From positions 1-64,000 of the forward strand of contig NZ_JAAITU010000016.1 in NCBI RefSeq assembly GCF_013304385.1: 64,000 nt of DNA, in the 5' to 3' direction. Positions 22,559 to 45,103 of the stretch are shown here, piece by piece. The stretch comes from Blautia glucerasea. GTDB lineage: Bacteria; Bacillota; Clostridia; Lachnospirales; Lachnospiraceae. The notes beneath the pieces were generated by a model. It ran no database searches, had not been told where the DNA came from, and saw only the letters and a list, made by a program, of their open reading frames with translations. The first letter of the stretch is position 1; every line of letters starts with the position of its first letter. A program made the position numbers and the translations under genes.

Positions 22559-23050
22559 TTATGAATAAGAGACGGGGACTCTTTTTTGTACTTCATCTGT
22601 GAGCCATCCGATCAGCAGGCCTGTGATCACACCAGACACCAGAAGTGCAGGTGCATAATACAAAAGGCTGGTATTTTCCACAATGACCATGGCTACAAGC
22701 AGCTGTCCCACATTGTGGGTGACGCCTCCTGCTACGCTGATGACTGGAATGGAAAAATCTGAGAATTTTTTCATAAGTGTCATGACGATAAGACTGAGGG
22801 CTGCACCGGACAGGCTATAAAGAATGCTGAACATATTGCCAAAAAGAAAGCCGATCACCAGGATCCGCACTGCAGATACCAAGGTTGCTTCTTTTAATGA
22901 GTATCTTTCCAGAATAAAAAGAACACTTAAATTGGCCAGACCAAGCTTAATGCCCGGGATCCCGGCGAAAACCGGGATCAGTGTTTCTACGTAGCCAAAG
23001 ATAATGGCTACAGCTGTAAAAAGCCCCAGATAGGCTGTTTTTTGTTTCAT
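22559..23050 (-). CDS. Gx transporter family protein (HepSI/ECF S-like)
   Basis: A 163-residue, highly hydrophobic protein with about five membrane helices. GAAAGGAAG sets the start at 23050. The family motif PGIKLGLAN is present. It was once called heptaprenyl diphosphate synthase component I, but it resembles an ECF-type S subunit. In other Firmicutes it lies beside NusG-like, FMN-binding and ApbE genes. Here it is divergent from an FMN-binding gene, 184 bp away, which suggests a role in supplying flavin or a quinone precursor to the same electron-transfer system. Confidence 0.82.
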   Translation of the reverse strand: MKQKTAYLGLFTAVAIIFGYVETLIPVFAGIPGIKLGLANLSVLFILERYSLKEATLVSAVRILVIGFLFGNMFSILYSLSGAALSLIVMTLMKKFSDFSIPVISVAGGVTHNVGQLLVAMVIVENTSLLYYAPALLVSGVITGLLIGWLTDEVQKRVPVSYS

Positions 23051-23234
23051 AGATTGCTTCCTTTCATACAAAGAGAATCATAACATGGTCAAAAAGAAAA
23101 TGCAATGAAAAGTTAGAATACAAAAATATAAATTAGACATATGTAACAAAAGTTATGGACATATAAAATGAAAGATGATACAATTCACAAGTTGGAAACA
23201 TAATAGGTAAATAGCAAAAGGAGCAAACAGATTT

Positions 23235-23896
23235 ATGAAAAATCAAAATTTCTATATGCGGGTTCTTTGCCTGGTGGTGATCATTGGTGCAGTCCTTTTT
23301 TATAATTCAAGAACCCAGGAAAAGGAATATCAGACACAGAATGAGGAGCTGACCAAGCGGGTAGATGCACTGGAAAAGCAGCAGCAGGAAATCCTTACAG
23401 CACTTCAGGAAAACTTTGATGTACAGGAGAAGGCAAAGGCAGAAAGCGAAAAGCAGAAAACAGAAACGACAAAAAGCGAAGAAAATGCAGACAGTACAGA
23501 AAATACAGACAGTGCAGAAAATGCAGACAGCGCAGAAAATGCAGACAGCACAGAAAATGCAGACAGCACAGAAAATGCAGACAACACAGAAACTGCAACC
23601 AGCACAGACACAGCAGATCCGGTATATAAGGATGGAACTTATACAGGAGATGGTCAGGGATTTGGCGGCAATATCCAGGTACAGATCACCATTGCGGATG
23701 ATACCTTAACGGATATTCAGGTAGTCAGTGCAGAGAAAGAAGACAGTGCGTATCTTTCTCAGGGAAAAGCAGTGATTGACCCCGTATCTTGGAAGCCCAG
23801 AGCACAGATGTAGATACCGTATCCGGTGCTACTTTCAGCTCTACCGGTATTTTGATGGCAGTAGAGGATGCCCTGGGAAAGGCGGAAAATCAATGA
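23235..23896 (+). pseudogene. Membrane-anchored FMN-binding protein, frameshifted before the flavinylation site
   Basis: The open frame (192 residues, stop at 23813) has an N-terminal membrane anchor, a coiled coil, an Asn/Ser/Glu repeat linker and the first two thirds of an FMN_bind domain (DGTYTGDGQGFGGNIQVQIT). Just after VIDPV it goes wrong. Another frame from about 23790 continues the domain (LEAQSTDVDTVSGATFSSTG) to TGA 23894-23896, which overlaps the next ATG. The SGAT site that carries covalent FMN is therefore lost from the written product. One missing base near 23788 explains it. It may be a real mutation, phase variation or a sequencing error. Confidence 0.8.
23481..23590 (+). repeat. 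18-bp tandem repeats coding an Asn/Asp/Ser/Glu linker
   Basis: About six units of GAAAATGCAGACAGCACA with small changes, encoding ENADST-like hexapeptides. They form the flexible tether between membrane anchor and FMN domain and are prone to length change. Confidence 0.9.
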
Positions 23897-24657
23897 AAAA
23901 GCGAATAAGAAAAACCCGGCTGATCAGGGCCGGGATACAGCTTTTGTTCTTTATCCTGGCGCCTTCTCTTTTTTCTACTGCATTTGCAGGAGTCAGATCC
24001 ATTTTCGATTCCATCTCGCAGGGAACACCGGTAGAATGGAATTCTTTTCTTGATATCACAGGGATCCTGGTGCTTGCAACGATTTTATTCGGGCGTCATT
24101 TCTGTGGTTATGCCTGTGCTTTTGGAAGTCTTGGGGATGCTTTATATGAGACCTTTTCCTGGTTCTGGATCAAAGTCCTGCACAGGAAAAAGAAACCGGC
24201 TTATCCGGAAAAAGCGGTTTATTTTATGCAGAAGATCAAATATGTGATCCTGGCAGCTATTTTGCTGGCCTGTGCCACCGGAACATACGGAAAGCTTCAG
24301 GGTACCAGTCCCTGGGATGTATTTTCCATGCTTCGTGCAGGAAGACTGCCGGGAGCGTCTTATAAGGTCGGAGTCCTCCTTCTTGTTCTGATCATGATAG
24401 GAATGTGTACCCAGGAACGGTTCTTCTGCCAGTTCTTTTGTCCTATGGGAGCTGTTTTTGCTATTCTTCCCATTGTGCCCGGAGCACTTCTGAAAAGAGA
24501 CAGGGCGAATTGTCCCCAGAAATGTGGAGCCTGTAAAAAAAGATGTCCTGCGCATCTGGATATTGACGGTGATACGTCCAGATCAGGGGAATGCATCTGC
24601 TGTCATGCCTGCCAGGCTATTTGTCCCAAGCAGAACATCCATACAGGCGATGCATAA
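23893..24657 (+). CDS. NosR/YccM-like 4Fe-4S membrane protein
   Basis: A 254-residue protein starting at ATG 23893, which overlaps the end of the FMN-binding gene by four bases. It has four or five membrane helices with paired Cys motifs at their ends (CGYACAFG; CQFFCPMG) as in NosR and NapH. Two clusters follow at the C-terminus (CPQKCGACKKRCP and CICCHACQAICP). Such proteins pass electrons across the membrane to extracytoplasmic flavin or other carriers. In this setting it is the likely electron gate feeding the FMN-binding proteins. Confidence 0.88.
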   Translation: MKKRIRKTRLIRAGIQLLFFILAPSLFSTAFAGVRSIFDSISQGTPVEWNSFLDITGILVLATILFGRHFCGYACAFGSLGDALYETFSWFWIKVLHRKKKPAYPEKAVYFMQKIKYVILAAILLACATGTYGKLQGTSPWDVFSMLRAGRLPGASYKVGVLLLVLIMIGMCTQERFFCQFFCPMGAVFAILPIVPGALLKRDRANCPQKCGACKKRCPAHLDIDGDTSRSGECICCHACQAICPKQNIHTGDA

Positions 24658-24771
24658 GGGATGTTAATATTTGTAAAATACTATGATGACATGGAACTAA
24701 AGCATGAGTCGAGGGTAATTCTATGTCCAATGGTTAGAACAAACTTATTTACGTTTTAAATGATAAAAAAA

Positions 24772-24787
24772 GTTAGATAAGACTGAT
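24772..24787 (+). promoter_or_regulatory. Weak match to the RTTAG-N6-CTAAY operator
   Basis: GTTAG ATAAGA CTGAT, one base off in the right arm. It lies just upstream of the -35 of the apbE promoter, so it could hold a second dimer. Confidence 0.4.
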
Positions 24788-24796
24788 TGAAAAGAA

Positions 24797-24826
24797 TTGA
24801 CATTTTTTTCTATACAATATTATACT
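24797..24826 (+). promoter_or_regulatory. Promoter of the apbE operon
   Basis: TTGACA at 24797-24802, 18-bp spacer, TATACT at 24821-24826. Confidence 0.75.
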
Positions 24827-24837
24827 AACTAAGCACG

Positions 24838-24853
24838 GTTAGATGATACTAAT
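24838..24853 (+). promoter_or_regulatory. Operator candidate, RTTAG-N6-CTAAY site 1
   Basis: GTTAGATGATACTAAT, 12 bp after the -10 and so at the start of transcription. A further half-site CTAAC lies at 24824-24828. The same motif recurs at the promoters of the ABC transporter, feoA, feoB and DUF3793-flavodoxin. Confidence 0.7.
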
Positions 24854-24885: not shown

Positions 24886-25983
24886 ATGAGAAAGAGACAA
24901 ATAAAAAAAGAAATAAATAAAAAAGAAATAAACCGAAAAGCAAATCCATATGGGAAATTCTTGCTTGCGGCAGTATGTGCAGCCGGGACAATCGCCCTCT
25001 GTCAGGCTGCATATGCCGCAGAGCCTGAATTATATACAGCAACAGATCTTGCCATGGATACGGTAGTTACAGAAAGTATTTACACCACCGGGGAAGATGT
25101 GACCGGAGAGATTGGCACCCTGCTTCGGAAGATAGAAAGCGATTGGCTTTCCTGGACTCAGGAGGATTCTATGATCGCCAGGATCAACGCAAGTGAAGGG
25201 CAGACCATGGAAGTACCGGATCAGCTGGCTTCTTATCTGGAGAAAGTAATGCAGTTAAGTGAAAACAGTAACGGTGCATTGGATCCTACTCTTGGACAGG
25301 TAATTCGTTTGTGGGATATTGGCGGCGAAAATCCTCACATTCCGGATGAAGATGAACTGAAACAGCTTCTGGCACTAACCGGTTATGAGAAAGTTCATCT
25401 GGAGGGAAACAAGATCACTTTGGATGAAGGCTGTACTCTGGATCTTGGGGCAGTTGGAAAAGGAATCGGCTGTGCAGAGGTTACAGATTATCTGCAGAAG
25501 CAGCAAAAGATCACGGCCGGACTTGTAAATCTTGGAGGCAGCAGCGTGCTGACTTACGGTACAAAGCCAGATGGAAGTAAATGGCAGATCGCTATCACGG
25601 ATCCAAGGGAAACAGAAGGGGATTATCTGGGAGCAGTTGCCCTTGACGGTGGAGAATTTCTTTCCACATCCGGAGATTATGAAAAGTATTTTATGGAAGA
25701 CGGGGTCAGATATCATCACATTCTGGATCCTGAAACTGGATATCCTGCAAATAGCGGTGTGTGTTCTGTAACCGTTGTGTGTGATGATGCAGTGGCAGCA
25801 GACGGCCTTTCCACAGCCTGTTTTATACTGGGCAGGGAAAAGTCACAGTCACTTCTGGAAAAATACAATGCAGAAGCACTTTTTGTAGATGAAGACCATC
25901 ATGTGACTATGACCGATGGGATGAAAGAACGGTTTCGTCTTTTAAAGGACAGCTACACAGTAAAAGCATTACAGACCGATTAA
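24886..25983 (+). CDS. apbE: FAD:protein FMN transferase (ApbE)
   Basis: A 365-residue exported protein: basic N-terminus, a signal segment (FLLAAVCAAGTIALCQAAYA), then the ApbE domain. Conserved blocks are visible (MDTVV near the mature start; SNGALDPTLGQVIRLWDIGG; LDLGAVGKGIGC; VNLGGSSV; HHILDPETGYPA; DGLSTACFILG). The enzyme uses FAD to attach FMN covalently to Ser/Thr in the SGAT motif of FMN_bind proteins. Four such motifs occur nearby, one in the frameshifted gene upstream and three at 29298-30776, so its clients are evident. It lies downstream of a putative metal-dependent operator. Confidence 0.95.
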   Translation: MRKRQIKKEINKKEINRKANPYGKFLLAAVCAAGTIALCQAAYAAEPELYTATDLAMDTVVTESIYTTGEDVTGEIGTLLRKIESDWLSWTQEDSMIARINASEGQTMEVPDQLASYLEKVMQLSENSNGALDPTLGQVIRLWDIGGENPHIPDEDELKQLLALTGYEKVHLEGNKITLDEGCTLDLGAVGKGIGCAEVTDYLQKQQKITAGLVNLGGSSVLTYGTKPDGSKWQIAITDPRETEGDYLGAVALDGGEFLSTSGDYEKYFMEDGVRYHHILDPETGYPANSGVCSVTVVCDDAVAADGLSTACFILGREKSQSLLEKYNAEALFVDEDHHVTMTDGMKERFRLLKDSYTVKALQTD

Positions 25984-26065: not shown

Positions 26066-29000
26066 ATGCATAAGTGGAATGTATTGAAAAAAACAGCACC
26101 GGTTTTCTTAAGCCTGGCAGTGGCAGCAACCAGCATGCCAACCACAATCCTGGCAGCAGATGCATTTGGTGATGGTACCGTTGTAGAAACAGAGGATGTT
26201 TCCGCAGAAGAAGTGTCAGAGGATGTTTTGGCAGAAGAAGCACCAACGGATGCCAGCGTAGAAGAGGTGCCGGAGGACACTGCAGATGTGCCTGAAGAGG
26301 TAACAGAGGATGCAGCTTCTGAGGAGGATTCATTATTTACATCTGAAGAAGAGACTGTAGAGACCGATACTTTAGAGGCAGAGGATGTTGCTGATAGAGG
26401 TGAGGTTCAGGTTGCCGGTTACACCTATCCATGGACAAAGGTTGCAGATGGCTCCACTGCTCCGACAGGATACAATAAGATTGGTGATTCAAACGTTTAC
26501 TATAAAGTAGATGAAAGCAACACTTATTTTTCATGGCGTTTTTATTATGGTAAGACAACTTTAAGTTATACAGATTTTTATAAAACAGGGCCATTTGACT
26601 CCACGGTTTATGATTCAGTAACTTCGGCAACAACGAAAAAGAATCAGCTTTTTGCAAATGCAGATGCAACTACACCTGATGAAAATGGATATAAGATCAA
26701 TGGTGTAAAAAATGTAAGTGTTAAGGTTGGGGATAAGGATTATGTAGAGGCAAAGATCCTTGAAGCAGCAGGGGAACTGCCCTCTGATGGTGTATATGCA
26801 AAAGCGGCAGGGATCGTATTGAATGAAAGTCCTTCAGATGAAGTGGTTCAGTATAAAGTCTTAAGCTCCAGCGGCTCATATGGAAAATGGCAGATAGCAG
26901 ATGCTGCGCAGACAAAGGTAACGGATGCAACAGCAACACTGGAAACCTCTTCACGCTGGGGAGATTATGTGATCAAGGTCAATGAGACAAGCACAAAGTA
27001 TCTCCGCAATTCCAGAGAAGGAGATTTTGCGGTAGCTGCCAACGTACAGGGTGTGATCCTGAAAACAAAGAGCGGCAAGACAGTAGGCCTTCGCCATTTG
27101 CAGGAAATCTGGGTACAGCCATATGAACTGGCATTTTCCAAAGATGCAGGTCTTCAGGGAGAAACGATTACAGAGATTACTTACATTATTCCAGAAGGAA
27201 GATATGTATACTCTTTTGCAAATGGAATCTATGTAAAGAAACAGGCTACAGATGCTATGAAACAGGCTGTAACAGCATCTTTTGAAAACAAGAATACTGT
27301 CAAAGTAACAGGCCTGGACAAATTTAAAAATCCAAAGGTTTCTGTTTACTATGTAACAGGTTCCGGAAGAAATTCCAAGACGACCTACATGGCAGAGGAA
27401 ACAGCAGTTACAATCGGTGAGGATGGATCTGCAGCAGTAACATTTGCAGATGAGAAGGTGGCACAGGCTGGCAAAGAGTACACCGTAAAGGTGACCAGTG
27501 ATGATTATGCTGACCTTACCACTACAGCCGTAAGGTCTGAATCAGATGAATGGAGCTATATGTATGTAGGCCTTACCTGGTCTGAGTATTGGGCAAACGA
27601 AGGCGTATACATGGCAGGAAGCACAGAGGCAAATGCTGAGACTGACGACAGGGATGAACATGACAAAGGTGCATTTGATACAGTTACAAGAGCTACTGTG
27701 AATCACGGACTTCAAAGAGGAAGCTTCCAGTGTACTACAGTTATTTATACAACAGACGGAAAAACATTCCCGGTTCAGAGCTGGAGCGCAGATGGCGGCA
27801 CTATGATCCTTACAGATGGAAGCACGGCTGCTTATAAAAGAGGCGTTATCACCGATGCTGAAGGTTCACATGTCCTGAAAGAGTATGATGTATATGGGCT
27901 GAAATATGTGCCTGTAAAAGTCAACAATGAGGATCTGGAAGCTTTTAAAGCAGCTTACGGAAGCAAGATCGTAGAGAATGGCGCAGCCATGAGCGGCGGC
28001 TACGGAGAACAGAAACTGAGTGCTTACACAGCAACTGCAACTGTTACTGAGAATACAAATGGTTTAAAGACAGCTGTATTACAGGAGAACGGAAGCTTTG
28101 CATTCAGTGCAAGAAACAATGCAGGTACAGAGTCCGGGCTTCAGGATCAGGCGTTAAAGACAGCGGATGGACTGGTCGTAACTGTAAAACCGGCAGATGG
28201 AAGCTACGGAGAATTTTTAAGAGTTGATCTTACCGGCAATTATGGTGATCTTGGTGCACATATGCAGGCAGTACGCTGGGATTACTATGGCACAGGTGAA
28301 ACGGTTCTCGCATCTTATGGAACAAAATTCGCAGCAGATAACTGGATGCACAAAACAAACGGAATCCAGCTTGGACTGACAAATTCTCTTCGCTGCCAGC
28401 TTCCGGAAGGAACAGACGGAACCGGAAAATGGGTGATTACCGTTTATGCACTTGGATATGCAGATACACAGGTTATTGTTAATGCAGCAGAGGAAAATAT
28501 AGTTAAGGCTATGGCCAATGCTACAGAAGAGGAAATTGCATCCGCAACATCTGCAGTAAATGCAGCAGAAGCATTGAAAGAAAGTGACTATACCGCAGAG
28601 TCCTGGGCTGCTATGCAGACAGAATTAGGCGAACTGAAAGATGCACTTAAAAAAGCAAAACCTAAGGCACCAGTATTAAATGAAGGGATCCAGCACTTAA
28701 ATGCAGCAATCGCAGCACTTGTAAAGGCACCTGTCCCTACTGCAGTGCCGGCACAGCCAACTGCCACACCAACGCCTTCTGCAGAACCAACCGTAACGCC
28801 AACACCTTCCGTAGAGCCAACAAAGACACCGGCACCGGAAGTGAAACCTTCTCTTACTGTTAAGAAAGCTGTACTTAACCTGAAGACCAGAAAGTCCGCA
28901 GCTATCGTACCGGTACTTACCGGAATCAGCGGAAATGTAACTTATAAATCAAGCAACAAAAAGGTTGCTGCTGTTAATTCCAAGGGTAAAGTTACAGCGA

Positions 29001-29296
29001 AGAAAACAGGTAAAGCTGTGATTACTGTGAAATGCGGAAATTACAAAACAAAGGTAGCTGTTTATGTAAATGAGAAGCTGAAGCTGAAGAAGTCTTCCGC
29101 AGTGATCAAGGTAAAAGGAAAAACTTCTATCAAAGCAACTACAAATATTTCCGGTAAGCTCACATATACTTCCAGCAATAAGAAGATCGCAACCGTTACA
29201 TCCAAGGGTGTTGTAAAGGGCGTAAAAAAAGGAAAAGCAACCATTACAGTAAAATGCAATGGTGTATCTAAGAAATTTAAGGTGACAGTAAAATAA
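26066..29296 (+). CDS. Giant surface protein with Tp47-like domains and Ig-like (Big_2) repeats
   Basis: 1076 residues with a signal peptide (cleavage near LAA, residue 32) and an acidic Glu/Val linker (to about 115). A large core matches the Treponema pallidum 47-kDa lipoprotein (Tp47): WSEYWANEGVY, then DKGAFDTVTRAT, VTENTNGLKTAVL and VRWDYYGTGET..ASYGTK. Next come a helical stretch, a Pro/Thr linker (about 890-925) and two Big_2 Ig-like domains (YKSSNKKVAAVNSKGKVTAK; YTSSNKKIATVTSKGVVKG). There is no sortase motif or membrane tail. Tp47 is best known as a penicillin-binding antigen; here its place between apbE and an FMN-domain protein suggests a redox or metal-binding surface role, which is inference. 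Confidence 0.87.
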   Translation: MHKWNVLKKTAPVFLSLAVAATSMPTTILAADAFGDGTVVETEDVSAEEVSEDVLAEEAPTDASVEEVPEDTADVPEEVTEDAASEEDSLFTSEEETVETDTLEAEDVADRGEVQVAGYTYPWTKVADGSTAPTGYNKIGDSNVYYKVDESNTYFSWRFYYGKTTLSYTDFYKTGPFDSTVYDSVTSATTKKNQLFANADATTPDENGYKINGVKNVSVKVGDKDYVEAKILEAAGELPSDGVYAKAAGIVLNESPSDEVVQYKVLSSSGSYGKWQIADAAQTKVTDATATLETSSRWGDYVIKVNETSTKYLRNSREGDFAVAANVQGVILKTKSGKTVGLRHLQEIWVQPYELAFSKDAGLQGETITEITYIIPEGRYVYSFANGIYVKKQATDAMKQAVTASFENKNTVKVTGLDKFKNPKVSVYYVTGSGRNSKTTYMAEETAVTIGEDGSAAVTFADEKVAQAGKEYTVKVTSDDYADLTTTAVRSESDEWSYMYVGLTWSEYWANEGVYMAGSTEANAETDDRDEHDKGAFDTVTRATVNHGLQRGSFQCTTVIYTTDGKTFPVQSWSADGGTMILTDGSTAAYKRGVITDAEGSHVLKEYDVYGLKYVPVKVNNEDLEAFKAAYGSKIVENGAAMSGGYGEQKLSAYTATATVTENTNGLKTAVLQENGSFAFSARNNAGTESGLQDQALKTADGLVVTVKPADGSYGEFLRVDLTGNYGDLGAHMQAVRWDYYGTGETVLASYGTKFAADNWMHKTNGIQLGLTNSLRCQLPEGTDGTGKWVITVYALGYADTQVIVNAAEENIVKAMANATEEEIASATSAVNAAEALKESDYTAESWAAMQTELGELKDALKKAKPKAPVLNEGIQHLNAAIAALVKAPVPTAVPAQPTATPTPSAEPTVTPTPSVEPTKTPAPEVKPSLTVKKAVLNLKTRKSAAIVPVLTGISGNVTYKSSNKKVAAVNSKGKVTAKKTGKAVITVKCGNYKTKVAVYVNEKLKLKKSSAVIKVKGKTSIKATTNISGKLTYTSSNKKIATVTSKGVVKGVKKGKATITVKCNGVSKKFKVTVK

Positions 29297-29297: not shown

Positions 29298-30776
29298 ATG
29301 AGTAAAAAATACAGCCATTGGGGAAAGCTTGCACCAGCGGCGGTTGTAATAGCAGCCATTCTTGTATCCGGAAAGGGCGATGAAGTCCTTTCCGGGCAGG
29401 AAATTGCACAGACACAGATCGTGAAGGCTTCCCAGTTGGCAATCTGGAAAACGGAATCCGTTTCTGAAACGGAAAATACAAAGAGCCAGACAGGTACAAA
29501 AAGTCAGACAGGCACAAAAAGCCGGTCTGACAAAACAAGTAATAAGAGGAATAGTATTAAGAAGGCCAGTCATACAAGACCGGCCTCTTCCTCTTCCGGG
29601 GCAGCAGTTGGAGGCGGAATGGGAACTACCCATACGCCTACCACAGCAGTTCCGTCAGACGGTTATCGGGACGGTACCTATACAGGAAGCGGCACCGGCT
29701 TTGGAGGACAGATTTCCGTACAGGTTATAGTTGCAGGAGGAAAGATCACAGCTGTGAATATTGTAAGTGCATCCGGAGAGACAGGAAGCTATCTTTCCAA
29801 AGCGCAGGGCGTGATCAGTAAGATTCTTTCTGCTCAGAATCCAAATGTGGATGCAGTAAGCGGAGCCACTTATTCTTCCAACGGGATCATTTCTGCTGTT
29901 CAGAATGCCCTTTCCAAAGCAGGGAAAAGCAGCTCCAGTACAGATGATGCCGCACAGGAAGAAGAACATCTAAGTGAAAAGGAAATGAAAAAGAATCTGT
30001 CACAGATGCTGTCCGGGCTTGATGAGGGAGCATCAGACGGTTATGAAGACGGAACATATCAGGGAAGCTCTCAGGGCTTTAACGGGATCGTTACGGTAAC
30101 GGTTACTATTGCAGATGGCAGGATCACCCAGATCACTTCCAGTCACAAGGATACCCCAAGATTCTTCCAGAAGGCATGGGAGGGTATCCAGCCCAAGATC
30201 CTGGCAAATCAGTCTCTGGAGGGAGTGGATGCAGTAAGCGGAGCCACCTATTCTTCCGCCGGAATCATGGGCGCAATAAACGAAGCTCTTAGTAAAGCAA
30301 GGAAAAGCGTGGAGATTCCCTCACAGCCGATAACAGTACCGGAGGACGTTCCACTTACCCAGCCGGATCAGGATGATCCGGAACCCACAGCTGTACCAGC
30401 GCCTACAGCCACACCAATACCGTCAGAAACACCGATGCCAACGCCTGCCCCGGAGCCAGAAAATCCGGAGGTTACACCAGGAGCGGAAACTACGCCTACA
30501 CCTTCTGTTCTCTATAAGGATGGTACCTATACAGGACAGTCCTATGGATACAGCGGTATTGTCACAGTAACGGTAACGGTTTCTGGAGGCAGGATCACAG
30601 CTATAAACCAGACTAACAGTGATTCCATAGAATATTTTGGTGATGCATGGGAAAGCATTTACCCACAGATCCTGGCAAAACAGGAAGCGGAAGGAATCGA
30701 TACAGTCAGTGGGGCAACTTTTTCATCAGAAGGTATTCTGGATGCTGTTAAGACAGCTCTTGTCCAGGCAAAATAA
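29298..30776 (+). CDS. Exported protein with three FMN-binding domains
   Basis: 492 residues starting one base after the previous stop, so co-translated. After an N-terminal hydrophobic segment and a Lys/Thr/Ser linker come three FMN_bind domains, each opening with DGTY and closing with the flavinylation motif: VDAVSGATYSS (about residue 188), VDAVSGATYSS (about 314) and IDTVSGATFSS (about 471). A Pro/Thr linker separates the second and third. Each SGAT is the known target for covalent FMN by ApbE, encoded three genes upstream. It probably acts as a three-flavin extracellular electron wire. Confidence 0.92.
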   Translation: MSKKYSHWGKLAPAAVVIAAILVSGKGDEVLSGQEIAQTQIVKASQLAIWKTESVSETENTKSQTGTKSQTGTKSRSDKTSNKRNSIKKASHTRPASSSSGAAVGGGMGTTHTPTTAVPSDGYRDGTYTGSGTGFGGQISVQVIVAGGKITAVNIVSASGETGSYLSKAQGVISKILSAQNPNVDAVSGATYSSNGIISAVQNALSKAGKSSSSTDDAAQEEEHLSEKEMKKNLSQMLSGLDEGASDGYEDGTYQGSSQGFNGIVTVTVTIADGRITQITSSHKDTPRFFQKAWEGIQPKILANQSLEGVDAVSGATYSSAGIMGAINEALSKARKSVEIPSQPITVPEDVPLTQPDQDDPEPTAVPAPTATPIPSETPMPTPAPEPENPEVTPGAETTPTPSVLYKDGTYTGQSYGYSGIVTVTVTVSGGRITAINQTNSDSIEYFGDAWESIYPQILAKQEAEGIDTVSGATFSSEGILDAVKTALVQAK

Positions 30777-30897: not shown

Positions 30898-31818
30898 ATG
30901 AGAGTCACTGTAAACATGAAGAAGACAGCAATGTGGCTTCTGGCGACAGCGTCTGTGTGGTTTTTTGCAGGTCTGCCATTGCAGGCGCAGGCACAGATCC
31001 AGGAAGGAACTGTTCAGAATGAGGCGGATACAGCAGCACCGGTCTTAGTTCAGAAAAAACAAGGCTTGGTTCGGGAAGGCAGGAATTACTGTTATTATGT
31101 AAAAGGCCAGAAGGTACGCCGGGTATGGAAGAAGATCCGTGGTCGGAAATATTACTTTGGAAATAATGGCAATGCAGCAACCGGATCTGTACAGATCAAG
31201 GGTACCTACTATATTTTCAACGAAAAGGGTCAGCTTCTGGCACCAAGGCGTAATGCCATTATGAAGGTAAAGAACGCATACTATTATGTAAAGCCTTCAG
31301 GAACCCCTGTTACCGGATGGAATGTGGTAAAGGGAAAACTGTATTATTCCTACAGGAATGGTAAATGTGCAGCCGGCAGGAAGGTTGGGGAGATCCGTTT
31401 CACCAGGAACGGATATGCCAGGGATGATATTAATACCAGGCTGAAGATCAAATGTATGGAAGTAATTAATAAAGTGACTACGCCTTCTGCTTCAACCAAT
31501 ACAAAGCTAAGGCAGTGTTGGTATTACCTGAATACGATCCGTTTCCAGTCAAATAAATTTCCTATTACCAGTCAGAAGAACTGGCCAAAATACTGTGCCT
31601 ACGACCTTCTGGATACCATGTGCGGCAACTGCTACGGGTTCGCTAATGCATTTGCAGCACTTGCAAAGGAACTGGGATACAAGCCTTATGTGATTGAGCT
31701 GCCTATGACTCATTGTTGGGTTCTGATCAATGGCGGATACTGGGATAACATGGGAAATAAAATGGGTGTACCTAATTCCCCTAACCGATATAATTCCGAT
31801 CAGATTTATAAATTCTAA
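30898..31818 (+). CDS. Exported transglutaminase-like protein with wall-binding repeats
   Basis: 306 residues; AAAAGGAG lies seven bases ahead of ATG 30898. It has a signal peptide (to about residue 32, LQAQA), then Tyr/Gly/Lys repeats like glucan- or choline-binding modules (GRKYYFGNNGNAATGSV; GTYYIFNEKGQLL). The C-terminal domain has a transglutaminase-like triad: Cys in GNCYGFANAFAALAKELGY, His in MTHCWVLI, Asp in YWDNMG. It may crosslink or cut surface proteins; its position after the FMN proteins suggests it acts on, or with, them. Confidence 0.82.
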   Translation: MRVTVNMKKTAMWLLATASVWFFAGLPLQAQAQIQEGTVQNEADTAAPVLVQKKQGLVREGRNYCYYVKGQKVRRVWKKIRGRKYYFGNNGNAATGSVQIKGTYYIFNEKGQLLAPRRNAIMKVKNAYYYVKPSGTPVTGWNVVKGKLYYSYRNGKCAAGRKVGEIRFTRNGYARDDINTRLKIKCMEVINKVTTPSASTNTKLRQCWYYLNTIRFQSNKFPITSQKNWPKYCAYDLLDTMCGNCYGFANAFAALAKELGYKPYVIELPMTHCWVLINGGYWDNMGNKMGVPNSPNRYNSDQIYKF

Positions 31819-36291: not shown

Positions 36292-36373
36292 TCTTTAAAA
36301 CACCGGCATAAGTGGGGATATCCGGTGGATCATTTACTGTCGTTTGATTAAATAAAAGAGAGGGATGAATGAA

Positions 36374-37662: not shown

Positions 37663-37691
37663 TTGACTACTAAAAGATATTAGAATATACT
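37663..37691 (+). promoter_or_regulatory. Promoter of feoA (first copy)
   Basis: TTGACT at 37663-37668, 17-bp spacer, TATACT at 37686-37691. The -10 lies inside the operator candidate at 37679-37694, an arrangement expected for a repressor. Confidence 0.85.
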
Positions 37692-37694
37692 AAT
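37679..37694 (+). promoter_or_regulatory. Operator candidate, RTTAG-N6-CTAAY site 3 (feoA)
   Basis: ATTAGAATATACTAAT, a perfect palindrome of the same 5-6-5 layout, over the -10 box. Confidence 0.8.
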
Positions 37695-37755: not shown

Positions 37756-37968
37756 ATGATGCCTTTGTCTATGGTTAATGAAGGGGAGCCGAACGTGATC
37801 CGGAAAGTCGGTGGAAAAGAAGAGATACGCAAATTCCTGGAAAACCTTGGCTTTGTTGTAGGAGGTACAGTGACCGTTGTTTCTGAGAATGACGGTAATC
37901 TGATCGTAAATGTAAAAGATTCACGTGTGGCGATTGGTAAGGACATGGCCAATAAGATTATGGTGTAA
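37756..37968 (+). CDS. feoA: FeoA, ferrous iron transport accessory protein (copy 1)
   Basis: 70 residues, an SH3-like FeoA domain (SMVNEGEPNVIRKVGGKEEI; ENLGFVVGGTVTVVSE; VNVKDSRVAIGKDMANKIMV). AAGGGAGA precedes ATG 37756. FeoA works in the cytoplasm with the FeoB pore. Its promoter overlaps a metal-type operator. Confidence 0.93.
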   Translation: MMPLSMVNEGEPNVIRKVGGKEEIRKFLENLGFVVGGTVTVVSENDGNLIVNVKDSRVAIGKDMANKIMV

Positions 37969-38075: not shown

Positions 38076-38297
38076 ATGAAAACATTACGTCAAGTTGCCG
38101 TTGGCCAGACAGTTACTGTTAAAAGGCTCCACGGCGAAGGGCCTGTAAAAAGGCGTATTATGGACATGGGAATCACAAAGGGCGTAGGGATTTATGTGAG
38201 AAAAGTTGCACCCCTTGGAGATCCGGTGGAAGTAACAGTGAGAGATTATGAGCTGTCCTTAAGAAAAGCGGATGCTGAGATGATCGAAGTGGAATGA
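38076..38297 (+). CDS. feoA: FeoA, ferrous iron transport accessory protein (copy 2)
   Basis: 73 residues (MKTLRQVAVGQTVTVKRLHG; RRIMDMGITKGVGIYVRKVA; PVEVTVRDYELSLRKADAEM), a second FeoA distinct in sequence from the first. AAAAGGAG precedes ATG 38076. Two FeoA genes before FeoB are common in Clostridia. Confidence 0.93.
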   Translation: MKTLRQVAVGQTVTVKRLHGEGPVKRRIMDMGITKGVGIYVRKVAPLGDPVEVTVRDYELSLRKADAEMIEVE

Positions 38298-38313: not shown

Positions 38314-38329
38314 GTTAGTGATTGCTAAT
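38314..38329 (+). promoter_or_regulatory. Operator candidate, RTTAG-N6-CTAAY site 4 (feoB)
   Basis: GTTAGTGATTGCTAAT, between the second feoA and feoB. A possible -10 (TATATT, 38339-38344) follows, but no clear -35, so an internal promoter is only possible. Confidence 0.65.
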
Positions 38330-38404
38330 TAACAACTGTATATTCTAACAAATGGAAGAAGCTTAAAACGAAATTAAATCAGGAAAGAAAGAGGAGGCAT
38401 GAAA

Positions 38405-40552
38405 ATGTCGATTAAGATTGCGCTTGCAGGCAACCCGAACTGCGGCAAAACAACATTGTTCAATGCGTTGACAGGATCTAACCAGTTTGTTGGTAACTGG
38501 CCTGGCGTAACCGTTGAGAAAAAAGAAGGTCGTTTAAAAGGACACAAAGATGTGATCATTATGGACCTTCCTGGTATTTATTCCCTTTCCCCATATACAC
38601 TGGAGGAAGTAGTTGCCAGAAATTACCTGATCAATGAAAGACCGGATGCAATCATCAATATCGTTGATGGTACAAACCTGGAAAGAAACCTGTATCTGTC
38701 CACTCAGATCATGGAGCTTGGCATTCCGGTAGTTATGGCTGTCAACATGATGGATCTGGTTCAGAAGACAGGGAATAAAATCTATATTGACAAATTAAGC
38801 AAAAAGCTTGGCTGCGAAGTAGTTGAGATTTCTGCTTTAAAGGGAACTGGCATCAGTAAAGCTGCTGAAAGAGCTATTGCGGCAGCCCAGAAGAAAAGCA
38901 GCGTAACACCTGTTCATGAGTTTGCTCAGGAAGTTGAGGATGTGATCAAGACTGTTGAGACAAAGCTTACAGGTATTGTTGCTGAGGAGCAGAAGCGTTT
39001 CTTTGCTATCAAGCTTCTGGAGAAAGACAGCAAGATCACAGAACAGATGAAAAGCGTGCCGGATGTATCTATTGAGGTTAAGGCTCTTGAAGATAAATTT
39101 GATGATGATACAGAGAGTATTATCACCAATGAACGTTATGTATACATTTCTTCCATTATCGGACAGTGCTATTCAAAATCCGCAAAAGGAAAGAAACTTA
39201 CAACATCTGACAAGATTGACCGTATCGTGACAAACCGCTGGCTTGCACTTCCAATCTTTGCAGTTGTAATGTTTGTTGTTTATTATGTATCAGTAACTAC
39301 GGTTGGTACGATTGTAACGGAGTGGACAAATGATGTTCTCTTTGGCGAGATCATCCCTCCTGCGATTGAATCTGCACTGGAGGCTGTTCACTGTGCTGCA
39401 TGGCTGCAGGGACTGATCCTGGATGGTATTGTTGCTGGTGTTGGCGCTGTACTTGGTTTCGTACCGCAGATGCTGGTTCTGTTCTTCTTCCTTGCATTCC
39501 TTGAGTCCTGCGGTTACATGGCTCGTGTTGCATTTATTATGGACAGAATCTTCCGCAAATTTGGTCTGTCCGGTAAATCCTTCATTCCTATGCTGATCGC
39601 ATCCGGATGTGGTGTTCCTGGTGTTATGGCTTCCCGTACCATCGAGAATGACAGAGACCGTAAGATGACTATCATGACAACTACCTTTGTTCCTTGTGGC
39701 GCAAAGCTTCCGATCATCGCCATGATCGCAGGCGCATTCTTCGGCAACAGTGGATGGGTGGCTACAAGTTGCTACTTTGTAGGCATTGCGGCAATCATCT
39801 GCTCTGGTATTATCTTAAAGAAAACAAAGATGTTTGCAGGTGATCCGGCACCATTCGTTATGGAGCTTCCTGCATACCATTGGCCAACCGCCGGAAATAT
39901 TTTAAGAAGCATGTGGGAGAGAGGCTGGTCCTTTATCAAAAAGGCCGGTACGATCATCCTTCTTTCAACCATCGTTCTGTGGTTCTTAATGGGCTTTGGA
40001 TGGGAAGGCGGTTCCTTTGGAATGGTCGAGGAACTGAACAACAGTATCCTTGCAAAGATCGGTTCTGCAATTGCCTGGATCTTTGGACCTTTGGGCTGGA
40101 CAAAAGCCGGCGAAGGCTGGAAGATGGCTGTTGCTGCTGTAACTGGTCTGATCGCAAAAGAAAACGTAGTAGCTACCTTTGGTATGCTGTTTGGCTTTGC
40201 TGAAGTTGCAGAAGACGGCGCTGAGATCTGGGGTAACCTGGCACAGGTTATGACACCTATCGCAGCATATGGATTCCTGGTATTCAACCTTCTTTGTGCA
40301 CCTTGCTTCGCAGCAATGGGCGCCATCAAGAGAGAGATGAACAACAAAAAATGGTTCTGGTTTGCAATCGGATATCAGTGCGGTCTTGCTTATGTGGTTT
40401 CACTTTGTATCTATCAGATCGGTACACTGATCACTACTGGAACTTTCGGTATTGGCACAGTGGTTGCTTTCATACTGGTTGCATGCTTTATTTATCTGTT
40501 ATTCAGACCATACAAAGAGAGCAATACATTAAAAGTAAGTGTAAAAGCCTGA
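38405..40552 (+). CDS. feoB: FeoB, ferrous iron transport GTPase/permease
   Basis: 715 residues. GAGGAGG (38391-38397) is seven bases ahead of ATG 38405, better than the ATG at 38399. The G domain shows GNPNCGKT (G1), DLPGIYS (G3) and NMMD (G4). A GDI-like helical part follows, then about eleven membrane helices with the gate motifs GCGVPGVMASRTIEN and CGAKLPII. It imports Fe(II). It lies downstream of both feoA genes and upstream of a Fur-family gene. Confidence 0.97.
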   Translation: MSIKIALAGNPNCGKTTLFNALTGSNQFVGNWPGVTVEKKEGRLKGHKDVIIMDLPGIYSLSPYTLEEVVARNYLINERPDAIINIVDGTNLERNLYLSTQIMELGIPVVMAVNMMDLVQKTGNKIYIDKLSKKLGCEVVEISALKGTGISKAAERAIAAAQKKSSVTPVHEFAQEVEDVIKTVETKLTGIVAEEQKRFFAIKLLEKDSKITEQMKSVPDVSIEVKALEDKFDDDTESIITNERYVYISSIIGQCYSKSAKGKKLTTSDKIDRIVTNRWLALPIFAVVMFVVYYVSVTTVGTIVTEWTNDVLFGEIIPPAIESALEAVHCAAWLQGLILDGIVAGVGAVLGFVPQMLVLFFFLAFLESCGYMARVAFIMDRIFRKFGLSGKSFIPMLIASGCGVPGVMASRTIENDRDRKMTIMTTTFVPCGAKLPIIAMIAGAFFGNSGWVATSCYFVGIAAIICSGIILKKTKMFAGDPAPFVMELPAYHWPTAGNILRSMWERGWSFIKKAGTIILLSTIVLWFLMGFGWEGGSFGMVEELNNSILAKIGSAIAWIFGPLGWTKAGEGWKMAVAAVTGLIAKENVVATFGMLFGFAEVAEDGAEIWGNLAQVMTPIAAYGFLVFNLLCAPCFAAMGAIKREMNNKKWFWFAIGYQCGLAYVVSLCIYQIGTLITTGTFGIGTVVAFILVACFIYLLFRPYKESNTLKVSVKA

Positions 40553-40633: not shown

Positions 40634-41104
40634 TTGGTGGGAGAACGAAAGGAAGAAGCAGCAAGGGAGTCTCAGTCATATGAGCGGACGAAAATGCAGA
40701 AAACCATGGTGATCCAGAAGCTTCGTGAGCAAGGATGCAGGATCACCAGACAACGAAGGACGATCCTGGATATTATTTTGGCAGAGGAGTGCTCCTGCTG
40801 TAAAGAGATTTATTTTAAAGTTCAGAAAAAAGATAAGAATATTGGTCCTGCAACGATTTACCGTATGGTGAACGTGCTTGAGAATATTGGAGCCATCAGC
40901 CGGAAAAACATGTATAAGATCGCAGACTGCAGTACCTGTTGTGAAGAAAAATCCTGTTATGTAAAATTAAGTGACGATACAATATGCAGGCTTTCTCCCG
41001 GAATGTGGCGGGAAGTAATGAAGGCAGGCATGAAAGAATGCGGATATATAAAGGAACAGGAAATCGCCAGTATTGAAATGAAGGCTTGCAAATGCGAAGC
41101 CTGA
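40634..41104 (+). CDS. Fur-family metal regulator
   Basis: 156 residues; CAGGAGG precedes TTG 40634 (GTG 40637 is equally possible). The winged helix is clear (EQGCRITRQRRTILDIILAE; IGPATIYRMVNVLENIGAIS). The C-terminal dimer domain is short and Cys-rich (CSTCCEEKSC, CKCEA) and lacks the usual HHDH metal motif of Fur, so its sensing chemistry may differ. It is most likely an iron regulator given feoB next door. Confidence 0.88.
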   Translation: MVGERKEEAARESQSYERTKMQKTMVIQKLREQGCRITRQRRTILDIILAEECSCCKEIYFKVQKKDKNIGPATIYRMVNVLENIGAISRKNMYKIADCSTCCEEKSCYVKLSDDTICRLSPGMWREVMKAGMKECGYIKEQEIASIEMKACKCEA

Positions 41105-41305: not shown

Positions 41306-41641
41306 ATGGCAGATTTGAACTGGAAAAAATCAGGATTATTTGCAGCAGGAGTTTTATTTGGCACGGCAGGCATCAAAGCACTGTCCAGTAAGGACGCAAA
41401 GAAGCTGTATACCAACTGCACAGCAGCTGTTCTTCGCGCAAAGGATTGCGTTATGAAGACAGTTACTACAGTTCAGGAAAACTGCGGTGACATTTATGAG
41501 GGGGCAAAGCAGATCAACGAAGACCGTGCTGCTGCTGAGGAGACTTTTGAGGATACGGCAGACGAGGAAGTAAAGACAGACCAGGAAGTCAAGGCAGAAG
41601 AGGATAAAACAGAAGAGGATACATTCAAAGAGGCAGAATAA
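41306..41641 (+). CDS. DUF6110 family protein
   Basis: 111 residues. An N-terminal hydrophobic segment (SGLFAAGVLFGTAGIKAL) is followed by a Cys-containing helix (CTAAVLRAKDCVMKTVTTVQ) and a very acidic tail of Glu/Asp/Thr (from about residue 75). The family is found next to P-type ATPases in Lachnospiraceae. The ATPase gene starts two bases after its stop, so they are co-translated. It may be a metal-binding partner of the pump; the function is unknown. Confidence 0.8.
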   Translation: MADLNWKKSGLFAAGVLFGTAGIKALSSKDAKKLYTNCTAAVLRAKDCVMKTVTTVQENCGDIYEGAKQINEDRAAAEETFEDTADEEVKTDQEVKAEEDKTEEDTFKEAE

Positions 41642-41643: not shown

Positions 41644-43725
41644 ATGCGTTTTAATATTAAACATGAGATCCGGGGAAGAATCAGGATCCATATTTTCCAG
41701 AAACGGATGACTTATCAGCAGGCAGATATCCTGCAGTATTATCTGGAAAATACTGACGGAGTGATAACGGCAAATGTTTATGATAAAACCTGTGATGCCA
41801 CCATCAGTTACAAAGGCGACAGGAAGGAGCTTCTTGGCAAGTTGCAGTGCTTCCGCTATGAGAATGTGAAAGTTCCGGCAGCTGTGCTGGATAGCTCCGG
41901 CAGGGAATTAAATGAACAGTATAAAGAGAAGCTTGTTAATAAAGTGATCTTTCATTACGCAAGGAAGTTTATGCTTCCAATGCCATTTTCAGCCATCTAT
42001 ACAGGTGTGGTATCTGCAAAATATATCTGGAAAGGCCTGAAGACTTTATGGCAGCGCAAGATCGAGGTACCGGTACTGGATGCGACTGCTATCAGTGTTT
42101 CTATGATCCGGGGAGATTTTGGAACTGCCGGTTCTGTAATGTTCCTTTTGGGAGTAGGTGAACTGCTGGAGGAGTGGACCCATAAGAAATCAGTAGGCGA
42201 TCTGGCTCGTACCATGTCCCTGAATGTGGGCAAGGTATGGCTGCGCACAGAAGATGAACAAGAAGTACTAACTGATGCAGATGTGATAAAGCCAGGTGAC
42301 TGTGTGGTTGTGCATATGGGCAATGTGATCCCGTTTGATGGTACAGTCCTTGAAGGTGAGGCTATGGTGAACCAGGCTTCTCTTACAGGTGAGTCTGTAC
42401 CAGTACGTCGTGTATCCGGCAACACCGTGTATGCAGGCACAGTTGTAGAAGAAGGAGAAGTGGTCTTTACTGTTTCCTCAGTAGGAGGCAGCAGCCGGTA
42501 TGAAAAGATCGCTGCTATGATCGAAGATACCGAGAAACTGAAATCCGGACTGGAGAGCAAAGCAGAACATCTGGCAGACCGTCTGGTTCCATATACTCTT
42601 GGCGGCACGGGTCTGGTGTATCTTCTCACAAGAAATGCTACAAAGGCACTTGCAGTGCTGATGGTTGATTTTTCATGCGCCTTGAAGCTGGCAATGCCTA
42701 TTTCCGTATTGTCTGCGATCCGTGAGGCTAACCGGTATAAGATCACAGTTAAGGGAGGCAAATTCCTGGAGGCTGTAGCTGAAGCAGATACCATTGTATT
42801 TGACAAGACAGGCACTCTTACCAAGGCAAAACCAACCGTAGCAAAGGTGATTTCTTTTGGCAGATACAGTGAAGATGAAATGCTTCGTCTGGCTGCGTGT
42901 ATGGAAGAGCATTTCCCTCATTCCATGGCAAAAGCTGTAGTAAATGCGGCAAAGCAGAAAGGGCTGGACCATGAGGAGATGCATTCCAAGGTAGAGTATA
43001 TTGTGGCCCATGGCATTTCCACATTTGTAAACGATCACAAAACTGTGATCGGAAGCTCTCATTTTGTATTTGAGGATGAGAAATGCAAGATCCCGCAGGG
43101 AATGGAAGAGAAGTTTGAACAGATTCCAGAAGAGTATTCCCACCTTTACCTTGCTATAGACGGTGAACTGGCTGCAGTGATCTGCATTGAGGATCCGCTG
43201 CGGGAGGAAGCACCGGAGGTGATCCGCAGGCTGAAAGACGCCGGATTTACCAAGGTGGTGATGATGACCGGGGATAGTGAGCGTACAGCAGCTGCAGTTG
43301 CCAAAAGGGTTGGGGTAGATGAATATTATTCAGAAGTCCTTCCTGGAGATAAAGCCAGATTCGTAGACAAGGAAAAAGCCGCAGGACGTAAGGTAGTGAT
43401 GCTTGGAGATGGCATCAATGATTCGCCTGCACTTTCGGCGGCTGACGCAGGTATAGCTGTCAGTGAAGGTGCACAGATCGCAAGAGAAGTGGCAGATATT
43501 ACCATTGGTATTGATGATCTGTATAGCCTTCTTGCACTGAAATACATTAGTGATGAACTAATGAAGAGAATCAGATGCAACTACAGAACCATTGTAGGCT
43601 TTAATACAGGACTGATCATTCTGGGGGTGGCTGGTATCCTGCAGCCTACTACTTCAGCACTTCTTCATAATACCTCCACACTGCTGATCGGGATGAGGAG
43701 TATGAAGAATCTTCTTCCGGAATAA
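41644..43725 (+). CDS. P1B-like metal-transporting P-type ATPase with an SCA motif
   Basis: 693 residues. An HMA-like N-terminal domain lacks CxxC. The core has the phosphorylation site FDKTGTLTKAK (Asp near 386), TGES in the actuator domain and GDGINDSPAL in the P domain. The transmembrane metal motif reads DFSCALKLAMP, where most P1B pumps have CPC, SPC or TPC: the proline is missing. The nucleotide domain has HFPHSMAKA where SEHPLA is usual. It may export iron or another divalent cation. It is linked to DUF6110 and sits in an iron-related cluster. Confidence 0.88.
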   Translation: MRFNIKHEIRGRIRIHIFQKRMTYQQADILQYYLENTDGVITANVYDKTCDATISYKGDRKELLGKLQCFRYENVKVPAAVLDSSGRELNEQYKEKLVNKVIFHYARKFMLPMPFSAIYTGVVSAKYIWKGLKTLWQRKIEVPVLDATAISVSMIRGDFGTAGSVMFLLGVGELLEEWTHKKSVGDLARTMSLNVGKVWLRTEDEQEVLTDADVIKPGDCVVVHMGNVIPFDGTVLEGEAMVNQASLTGESVPVRRVSGNTVYAGTVVEEGEVVFTVSSVGGSSRYEKIAAMIEDTEKLKSGLESKAEHLADRLVPYTLGGTGLVYLLTRNATKALAVLMVDFSCALKLAMPISVLSAIREANRYKITVKGGKFLEAVAEADTIVFDKTGTLTKAKPTVAKVISFGRYSEDEMLRLAACMEEHFPHSMAKAVVNAAKQKGLDHEEMHSKVEYIVAHGISTFVNDHKTVIGSSHFVFEDEKCKIPQGMEEKFEQIPEEYSHLYLAIDGELAAVICIEDPLREEAPEVIRRLKDAGFTKVVMMTGDSERTAAAVAKRVGVDEYYSEVLPGDKARFVDKEKAAGRKVVMLGDGINDSPALSAADAGIAVSEGAQIAREVADITIGIDDLYSLLALKYISDELMKRIRCNYRTIVGFNTGLIILGVAGILQPTTSALLHNTSTLLIGMRSMKNLLPE

Positions 43726-43843: not shown

Positions 43844-43858
43844 TGAGAATTATTATAC
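43844..43858 (+). promoter_or_regulatory. Fur-box-like site
   Basis: TGAGAATTATTATAC matches the Fur core TGATAATNATTATCA at 11 of 14 defined positions; it lies 22 bp upstream of the -35. Confidence 0.6.
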
Positions 43859-43879
43859 AAATAAGGGAGTCATCATCTA

Positions 43880-43908
43880 TTGACAAAAAAGCATAGATAA
43901 AGTAATCT
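43880..43908 (+). promoter_or_regulatory. Promoter of DUF3793-flavodoxin
   Basis: TTGACA at 43880-43885, 17-bp spacer, TAATCT at 43903-43908. Confidence 0.8.
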
Positions 43909-43917
43909 ATCTATGTG

Positions 43918-43933
43918 GTTAGCAAATGCTAAC
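43918..43933 (+). promoter_or_regulatory. Operator candidate, RTTAG-N6-CTAAY site 5
   Basis: GTTAGCAAATGCTAAC, perfect arms, starting ten bases after the -10 and so covering the transcription start. Confidence 0.75.
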
Positions 43934-44044
43934 TACCAATAGGTGATGACCTTATTTTTTTTAAATGACGGTTAGATGTAACTTATATGTATTGCAAATA
44001 ACTAATTACCTATCATTAAATGAATACAAGAAGGAGGATTCATT

Positions 44045-44614
44045 TTGGCGGAAAACATAGAAAGATATCTGATTGAACATTGTTCCCCTACGCTGGCGTC
44101 TGTAAAGGCGGCCAATCTGTTTAATGCAGTGATAGAAGATGACCAGGAATTGGCTGAACAAGTCAAACAGTGGAATCGCCTGATGAATCCAAAGGGAGTT
44201 AAGCTTCTGGTTTTGCGTAATCATGGACGACGAGCACTTGTATATGTATATCGTGAGAAAAAGCTGCAGGAAAAGCTGGACGAATCCGGTGTTGCAGGTT
44301 TTCTGGAAAAGTACGGGTATACATCCACAGATGCAGGGTATGCATTGAACCGCCTTGTGGAACGGTTTTCCAGGCAGGAGGAATTTCCTCATGAAATTGG
44401 GATTTTTTTAGATTATCCACTTGGGGATGTGATTGGTTTTATCAAAAACAGCGGACAGAATTATAAGTGTGCAGGCTGTTGGAAAGTATACTGTAATGAA
44501 TGTGAAACTATGAAGCTGTTTCATAAGTACCGGAAGTGCAGGAATATTTACCGCAGTCTGTGGCAAAATGGAAGAAGTGTTGTGCAGCTGACAGTAGCCG
44601 GTGCCAGTGCATGA
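44045..44614 (+). CDS. DUF3793 family protein
   Basis: 189 residues with a TTG start at 44045; GGAGG lies six bases upstream. It matches DUF3793 over its length (CSPTLASVKAANLFN; HEIGIFLDYPLGDVIGFIKN; KVYCNECETMKLFHKYRKCR), with a Cys-rich C-terminal part (C..C...CNEC) that may bind metal. It is normally found beside flavodoxin, as here. Its function is unknown. Confidence 0.88.
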   Translation: MAENIERYLIEHCSPTLASVKAANLFNAVIEDDQELAEQVKQWNRLMNPKGVKLLVLRNHGRRALVYVYREKKLQEKLDESGVAGFLEKYGYTSTDAGYALNRLVERFSRQEEFPHEIGIFLDYPLGDVIGFIKNSGQNYKCAGCWKVYCNECETMKLFHKYRKCRNIYRSLWQNGRSVVQLTVAGASA

Positions 44615-44680
44615 TGGGCTGACCTGGTGAAAAGTTTGCTTAACATAAAATTTAATATGAATGAAAGGGGTATTTATATT

Positions 44681-45103
44681 ATGAGTAAAGTTGCAGTTGT
44701 TTTCTGGAGCGGAACTGGCAATACAGAGGCTATGGCAGATAAAGTAGCGGAAGGCGCAAAAGAAGCAGGCGCTGAGGTTTCTGTTTTTAGTGCAGAGGAT
44801 TTCTCTGCTGACAAAGTGGAGGAGTTTGACGGACTGGCATTCGGCTGCCCTGCTATGGGGGATGAAGAACTGGAAGATACTATTTTTGAGCCGATGTATG
44901 CGGCGTGTGAGCCAAAGCTTGCAGGTAAAAAAGTAGGTCTTTTCGGATCCTATGGATGGGGAGACGGAGAGTGGATGCGTACCTGGGAAGAAAATGCAAA
45001 AGGTGCAGGTGTATCACTTGTCGCTGATCCTGTGCTTTGCAACGAGGAGCCGGATGATGATGCACAGGCAGCTTGCCAGGATCTTGGAAAAGCACTTGCC
45101 TGA
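44681..45103 (+). CDS. Flavodoxin
   Basis: 140 residues from ATG 44681, preceded by GAAAGGGG. The FMN phosphate loop is WSGTGNTEAMA; the flavin-stacking region is SYGWGDGEWMRTW. This is a short-chain flavodoxin. It replaces ferredoxin as an electron carrier when iron is scarce, which fits the two kinds of iron-type operator upstream of the DUF3793 gene. Confidence 0.95.
   Translation: MSKVAVVFWSGTGNTEAMADKVAEGAKEAGAEVSVFSAEDFSADKVEEFDGLAFGCPAMGDEELEDTIFEPMYAACEPKLAGKKVGLFGSYGWGDGEWMRTWEENAKGAGVSLVADPVLCNEEPDDDAQAACQDLGKALA

Follow-up and report, generated by a model that had tools for sequence, protein, structure and literature searches.

A conserved gut-bacterial gene set with operator-like sites shared by iron-uptake genes suggests a place for Tp47-type proteins in an iron-reducing electron chain

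Introduction

The NapH-like ApbE systems, as set out in the main text of Meheust et al. 2021 (PMC8238504), encode a PF12801 Fe-S membrane protein, a separate FMN_bind gene, ApbE and a multi-flavinylated protein. We describe here a cassette with the same components in Blautia glucerasea, found in a stretch of 64,000 nucleotides (contig NZ_JAAITU010000016.1, positions 1 to 64,000; hereafter the window), in which a relative of the syphilis antigen Tp47 is encoded among the flavin genes. The characterised examples in that main text carry out organohalide and nitrous oxide reduction, whereas the window has a Tp47-module partner and a palindrome shared with feo and flavodoxin genes. The terms 'Tp47', 'PF14889' and 'penicillin-binding' were not found in the main text of the paper, to which the search was confined; the Pfam names of its clusters are given in supplementary tables. 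No described link between Tp47 and flavins was found in open-access main texts either; an initial annotation of this DNA, made from the letters alone, had known of no description of the combination with Tp47 domains and a transglutaminase.

The flavin-based extracellular electron transfer (FLEET) system of Listeria, as far as the sections on it go (PMC9973259, PMC9864754), has in common with the cassette an EetB (PF07456) exporter of flavin adenine dinucleotide (FAD), an ApbE/FmnB-type transferase and a flavinylated surface protein; PF07456 is there EetB, an ECF-S subunit that binds FAD and on which the flavinylation of PplA depends (PMC9973259). The window differs in having a NapH-like conduit, and a Tp47 protein in place of PplA. 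The definition of FLEET in the main text of PMC8238504 asks for a membrane NADH dehydrogenase encoded within the cluster of flavinylation genes; the scan of 20 window proteins found a member of the EetB family, but no NADH dehydrogenase or quinone genes. The PepSY/MsrQ assimilatory flavin reductases (PMC8238504, main text) likewise involve a flavinylated reductase proposed for iron uptake, but with another membrane conduit and a VIT1 transporter, where the window has a Feo regulon. The same main text calls the gene clusters of multi-flavinylated proteins 'generally unclear'.

Results

The Tp47-flavin cassette and its conservation

Pfam scans of 20 open reading frames (ORFs) of the window bore out nearly all the gene names of the initial annotation and support an ApbE/flavin mononucleotide (FMN) electron-transfer cassette; the named families stood, purC, a malic enzyme gene and a DUF6110 gene had been missed, and the first FMN_bind gene proved to be broken. 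The cassette begins on the minus strand with an EetB-like (PF07456) ECF-S family membrane protein (22559..23071, 3.5e-39), a probable FAD exporter supplying ApbE. On the plus strand follow the frame-broken gene of a single-FMN_bind protein (23235..23813), a NapH/NosR-like membrane 4Fe-4S protein (PF12801, Fer4_5; 23893..24657), the ApbE flavin transferase (24886..25983, 7.1e-79), a Tp47-family surface protein with two Tp47-like modules, matching Tp47 domains a and C, and Big_2 repeats (26066..29296), and a multi-flavinylated protein (29298..30776) with three FMN_bind domains (4.3e-43, three stretches) and SGAT motifs seen in the alignment. With a PF12801 membrane protein encoded beside FMN_bind and ApbE genes, and more than one FMN_bind domain in the 29298-30776 product, the cassette has the marks of a NapH-like, multi-flavinylated system. 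For the Fer4_5 gene, 23893 is a more probable start than 23776, and its product is a probable transmembrane electron conduit; its counterpart at L031 matches the NapH and NosR models below their cut-offs.

In the broken gene the FMN_bind domain lies in pieces (23658-23804 and 23789-23875) in differing frames, and the 192-aa ORF at 23235 alone has no FMN_bind match in Pfam; intact counterparts of 197, 201 and 211 aa are present at L031, L033 and L054. A repetitive linker of Asn-Ala-Asp-Ser-Thr-Glu-like sequence is seen at 23470-23620. Elsewhere the genome has a second ApbE and another FMN_bind gene (contig C98, L023), whose neighbours look rnf-like by eye.

One profile scan of genome contigs with a four-sequence Tp47 alignment gave 115 pattern matches, of which 50 were confirmed, at 49 loci. 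Genes were counted with iterated profiles on the ORFs of these loci, and the frequencies are conditional on the Tp47 query. FMN_bind ORFs are present in 43 of the 49 loci, Fer4_5 in 41, ApbE in 35 and PF07456 in 24, with FMN_bind, Fer4_5 and ApbE together in 32; the co-location spans genera and includes Coriobacteria. Six loci are without FMN_bind, and all four of the corresponding genomes that were searched (L059, L064, L081 and L098) have it outside the locus stretch; in the L081 genome a remote apbE-FMN pair (L146) also has the palindrome upstream. The other genes of the window are rarer beside Tp47: ABC in 13/49 loci, P1B ATPase in 7/49, FtsX in 4/49, purC and DUF6110 in 3/49 each, HMA in 2/49, and feoA, malic enzyme, transglutaminase, DUF3793 and flavodoxin in one locus each.

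Two congeners (G173 and G269) have the cassette in the order EetB-like, NusG_II, FMN_bind, Fer4_5, ApbE, Tp47 and triple FMN_bind, flanked by unrelated genes and with no feo beside it. Their NusG_II gene beside the EetB gene (by Pfam at L031, by eye at L033) matches the arrangement of Listeria FLEET, where we take EetA to be the NusG_II protein. The initial annotation had proposed to search for conservation of gene order; the association of Tp47 with the flavin genes recurs across loci, its adjacency to feo only in L054. The single 'island' of cassette, feo and malic enzyme has been rejected, since that arrangement is shared by L054 only and purC (also in L069 and L081) and malic enzyme interrupt it. 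FtsX was likewise dropped as a cassette part on its count in the loci, as was the transglutaminase, which the initial annotation had included; G110 has one more transglutaminase, about 3 kb away from Tp47.

Only 5 of 295 sampled genomes of the order match PF14889, one of them weakly; the Tp47-flavin system is therefore sporadic. The match in G019 (25.4 bits, one internal stop) was dropped because the 13 kb examined there contained neither Tp47 nor a flavin homologue, and no Tp47 match was found in the plasmid collection. In L098, from the uncultured Lachnospiraceae metagenome-assembled genome RUG14105 (2-3260), the Tp47 gene is followed by DUF3793 and flavodoxin. In [Ruminococcus] faecis (L068), the apbE and Tp47 genes (4214-5297 and 10082-13152) each appear as two ORFs, being either broken genes or assembly errors.

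Operator-like palindromes at the cassette

The palindrome RTTAG-N6-CTAAY was first noticed in the window, and the other genomes therefore provide an independent test. A pattern search found 15 sites in the own genome (3.99 Mb) and 7 for the reversed control; five of the 15 are in the window, where a uniform distribution would place about 0.07 in the 19 kb concerned. These five lie 5' of apbE (24838..24853), 5' of the ABC operon (31898..31913), over the predicted -10 element of feoA1 (37679..37694, from promoter scoring), 5' of feoB (38314..38329) and 5' of the DUF3793-flavodoxin pair (43918..43933). The palindrome places again exceed the controls in the congeners (11 versus 3 in G173, 19 versus 5 in G269). 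At the cassette loci of G173, G269 and G110, exact sites are found 5' of the first FMN_bind gene (one, L031), at L033 (one), and at apbE and 5' of Tp47 (one each, L029); the adjoining stretches L030, L032 and L034 have no exact palindrome.

Across the 49 Tp47 loci (941 kb) there are 79 palindromes against 3 reversed controls. A palindrome lies within 400 bp upstream of the Tp47 gene in 29 of 47 loci, control 0, counting the first Tp47 ORF of each locus and leaving aside L091 and L098, which are without upstream sequence. The regions upstream of ORFs for Tp47, FMN_bind, ApbE or Fer4_5 make up 10.1% of the sequence and hold 64 of the 79 palindromes (expected 8.0); at least one such region holds a palindrome in 38/49 loci. 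Sigma70 match scores of at least 10 were obtained for 41/84 sites versus 11.7% of 420 mononucleotide shuffles, and scores of at least 9 for 59/84 versus 50.7%; in 41 of these 59 the -10 element ends about 5-15 bp before the site. This placement at sigma70-like promoters fits repression. A palindromic spacer within the operator was sought and not found.

The regulon and a candidate regulator

The initial annotation had linked the flavin part with Feo and flavodoxin through shared operator-like sites, and the five window palindromes, together with their recurrence in other genomes, uphold this. Inspection of the ORFs closest to each site places the palindrome at feoA and at DUF3793-flavodoxin in 4/4 genomes (the window in the own genome; L109 and L105; L133 and L131; L119), of which G173, G269 and G110 were chosen for having Tp47, and feoB is palindrome-headed also in the window and L119. 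The palindrome is thus kept on feo and flavodoxin even where they are unlinked to the cassette, which, with FMN_bind in so many Tp47 loci, makes the combination stronger than had been claimed. ZIP, Nramp, Trep_Strep ECF and ABC operons are palindrome-headed in at least one of the four genomes. DUF2325 genes have it upstream in the own genome (L012/L013, two copies 117 bp apart, by Pfam) and, by eye, in G173 (L110) and G269 (L122). A palindrome also stands 5' of an ORF that looks enolase-like by eye in three genomes (L107, L135 and L117), a gene without an obvious link to metal.

The analysis gives no support to Fur as the likely operator-binder. The genome encodes three DtxR-family (PF02742) proteins, and two of their genes come last in palindrome-headed operons; the TTAG-N6-CTAA sites also resemble what we take to be DtxR/MntR boxes.

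Domains and motif of the Tp47 modules

The window protein belongs to the Tp47 family by its PF14889 and PF14888 domains and its 1o75 fold (Pfam and structure searches). It differs from Tp47 of Treponema pallidum (TP0574, PDB 1o75) in its two modules, its Big_2 repeats and what by eye appears to be a Sec signal. The modules, at residues about 112-480 and 494-815, each contain D-x-V-T-[S/R]-A-T. FMN_bind is fused within the Tp47 polypeptide in 13/51 proteins, and Shr-like_HID domains are present in 16/51 (both at E <= 0.001). One of the Tp47 protein sets was formed without the 73-aa piece of L102 but with the window protein.

The Tp47 motif resembles the ApbE motif D-x-x-[S/T]-G-A-[S/T]. One set kept the 47 of 51 Tp47 ORFs whose core was of sufficient length (L102, two pieces from L068 and one ORF from L084 were dropped), and second-type modules were taken at scores of at least 150 bits. 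The modules depart from the ApbE motif at the Gly position, which is Arg in 48/48 canonical modules and Ser in 29/29 second-type modules; in the FMN_bind ORFs of the Tp47 loci it is Arg in 8 motifs versus Gly in 153. The motif background was drawn from ORFs of at least 150 aa, excluding Tp47 and FMN ORFs, and the Tp47 sequences, being homologous, are not independent events. With hhalign, Tp47 domain a matched FMN_bind at a probability of 11.9 over 10 columns only, versus 0.05-5.2 for six control pairs, and the second-type module matched in the motif alone (3.1). On this basis domain a has been dropped as a putative FMN_bind homologue, the match being the 10-column motif, and motif similarity alone is retained. 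In the structure searches 1o75 stood apart, with no FMN_bind chain among the 50 matches listed, which does not exclude one.

Neighbouring genes

Downstream of the cassette, all on the plus strand and named by Pfam, lies first a gene for choline-binding repeats and a weak transglutaminase core (30898..31818; 25.3 bits, cut-off 23), then an ABC block with a MacB/LolD-type ATPase (31957..32655), an FtsX/MacB-type permease (32665..35022) and a small HMA metal-binding protein (35047..35307). The start of the ABC gene is placed near 31957 because the palindrome overlaps the start of its longest ORF; in G110 (L113) the ABC-FtsX pair is likewise preceded by a palindrome. The housekeeping genes purC (SAICAR synthetase, 35419..36291) and malic enzyme (36365..37549) separate the flavin genes from feoA1 (37756..37968), feoA2 (38076..38297), the ferrous iron transporter gene feoB (38399..40552) and a Fur-family regulator (40634..41104). 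Further on are a DUF6110 small protein (41306..41641), a P1B ATPase (41644..43725), DUF3793 (44045..44614) and flavodoxin (44627..45103).

The DUF6110 protein and the P1B ATPase, which has a DFSCALKLAMP motif (41306-43725, beside feo), adjoin the Tp47 cassette as a pair in three Faecalibacterium loci (L078, L079 and L082). We presume that the DUF6110 protein could be FezA-like, and the ATPase is possibly FezB-like, as in ferrosomes. Ferrosome formation, in the part of PMC12574912 that treats it, needs the FezA membrane protein and the FezB transporter. Three genes 3' of flavodoxin (45285-47803), which by eye encode a small HMA-like protein, a P-type ATPase and an ArsR-like regulator, are perhaps a separate metal-efflux unit.

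Discussion

The sequence establishes the gene content, the Tp47-flavin association, the shared operator-like sites and the promoter placement. We read the cassette as a NapH-like flavinylation system with the Tp47 protein at its surface end, most likely for assimilatory Fe(III) reduction that feeds Feo; from the genes we infer the reduction at the surface that the initial annotation had proposed. The EetB-like transporter would export FAD, and ApbE would flavinylate the FMN_bind proteins. The NapH-like Fe-S protein would hand electrons outward, by way of the membrane FMN_bind protein and next the multi-flavin protein, to the large surface protein with its Tp47 modules, where Fe(III), an iron chelate or haem would be reduced; the Fe(II) would enter through FeoB. 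With abundant metal, a DtxR-family repressor on RTTAG-N6-CTAAY would turn off the cassette along with feo and flavodoxin. We regard such a chain, induced by metal starvation and carrying electrons to the surface for iron assimilation, as somewhat more probable than improbable.

Several observations weigh against this chain. The FMN_bind gene beside the NapH-like gene is broken in the window and no exact palindrome lies in its promoter, so that the local chain may be impaired. Adjacency of feo to the cassette is seen only in the window and L054. Regulation is not universal, since 9/49 loci have no exact palindrome: L070, L080 and L086 (G+C-rich Actinobacteria), L091 and L098 (contigs cut at Tp47), and L062, L067, L088 and L100. 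In G110 the palindromes barely exceed the control (14 versus 9). At several sites per genome no metal gene is evident nearby (for example L008, L010 and L016 in the own genome, and about half in G173, for example L103, L104, L106, L111 and L112), and the presence of ZIP and Nramp in the regulon allows a manganese or general divalent-metal signal.

The cassette might instead serve dissimilatory extracellular electron transfer, with fermentation electrons passing to an outside acceptor, no role in iron uptake, and an operator that saves iron by letting flavins replace Fe-S carriers. The EetB homologue (Pfam; Listeria counterpart in the relevant part of PMC9973259), the likeness of the NapH-like and multi-flavin proteins to respiratory systems (PMC8238504, main text) and the flavodoxin within the palindrome regulon speak for it. 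The palindrome is, however, common to Feo, ZIP, Nramp and ECF operons, which fits acquisition, and we consider the dissimilatory role unlikely; that Pfam found no NADH dehydrogenase in the window set counts against it as well as against the assimilatory chain.

An assimilatory chain could also have host haem, haemoproteins or ferric siderophores as its substrate in place of free Fe(III), with Tp47 modules binding the ligand, flavins reducing it and iron being released. The surface proteins are large and modular, and the Shr-like_HID domains noted above are of the haemoglobin-interacting kind. The domain was nevertheless not found by Pfam in the window protein, 35/51 proteins are without it, and PF07550 is a family name only, the binding being putative; we consider such a substrate quite improbable. 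That Tp47 is a penicillin-binding or cell-wall protein merely sharing surface and regulon with the flavin genes, as the Pfam name of both domains ('Penicillin-binding protein Tp47') and a description reportedly from 2002 would have it, seems highly improbable in view of the co-location across genera and in Coriobacteria, the FMN_bind fusions, the palindrome shared with flavin genes and the flavinylation-like invariant motif.

A bolder reading, which we put forward as doubtful, is that the Tp47 modules are themselves redox modules. ApbE would place FMN on the Thr that is invariant in D-x-V-[S/T]-[R/S]-A-T. Tp47 would then represent a fold class new among ApbE substrates, or else mimic the FMN_bind motif for docking, and the syphilis antigen would in truth serve electron transfer for metal acquisition, not penicillin binding.

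No spirochaete is among the 49 loci of the one genome-contig scan. In Treponema, TPASS_0572 is entered as FMN-binding in the corrected table of PMC5951579 (rows of the uncorrected one are misaligned), and TPANIC_0574 is identified as Tp47 in PMC5956850, which mentions Tp47 and flavin in separate places; from the locus tags of these two papers, the Tp47-flavin pairing therefore probably reaches a third phylum.

Taken together, the conserved gene set with its Tp47 relatives and the promoter switch of iron uptake suggests that Tp47-type proteins take part in an iron-reducing electron chain. The function of Tp47, a dominant syphilis antigen, becomes testable through relatives that lie beside, are fused to and are apparently co-regulated with a flavin electron-transfer cassette of gut commensals. 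The cassette also offers a candidate role for multi-flavinylated proteins, and it points to a way in which fermenting bacteria of the gut could obtain iron by reduction and uptake when the host limits it.

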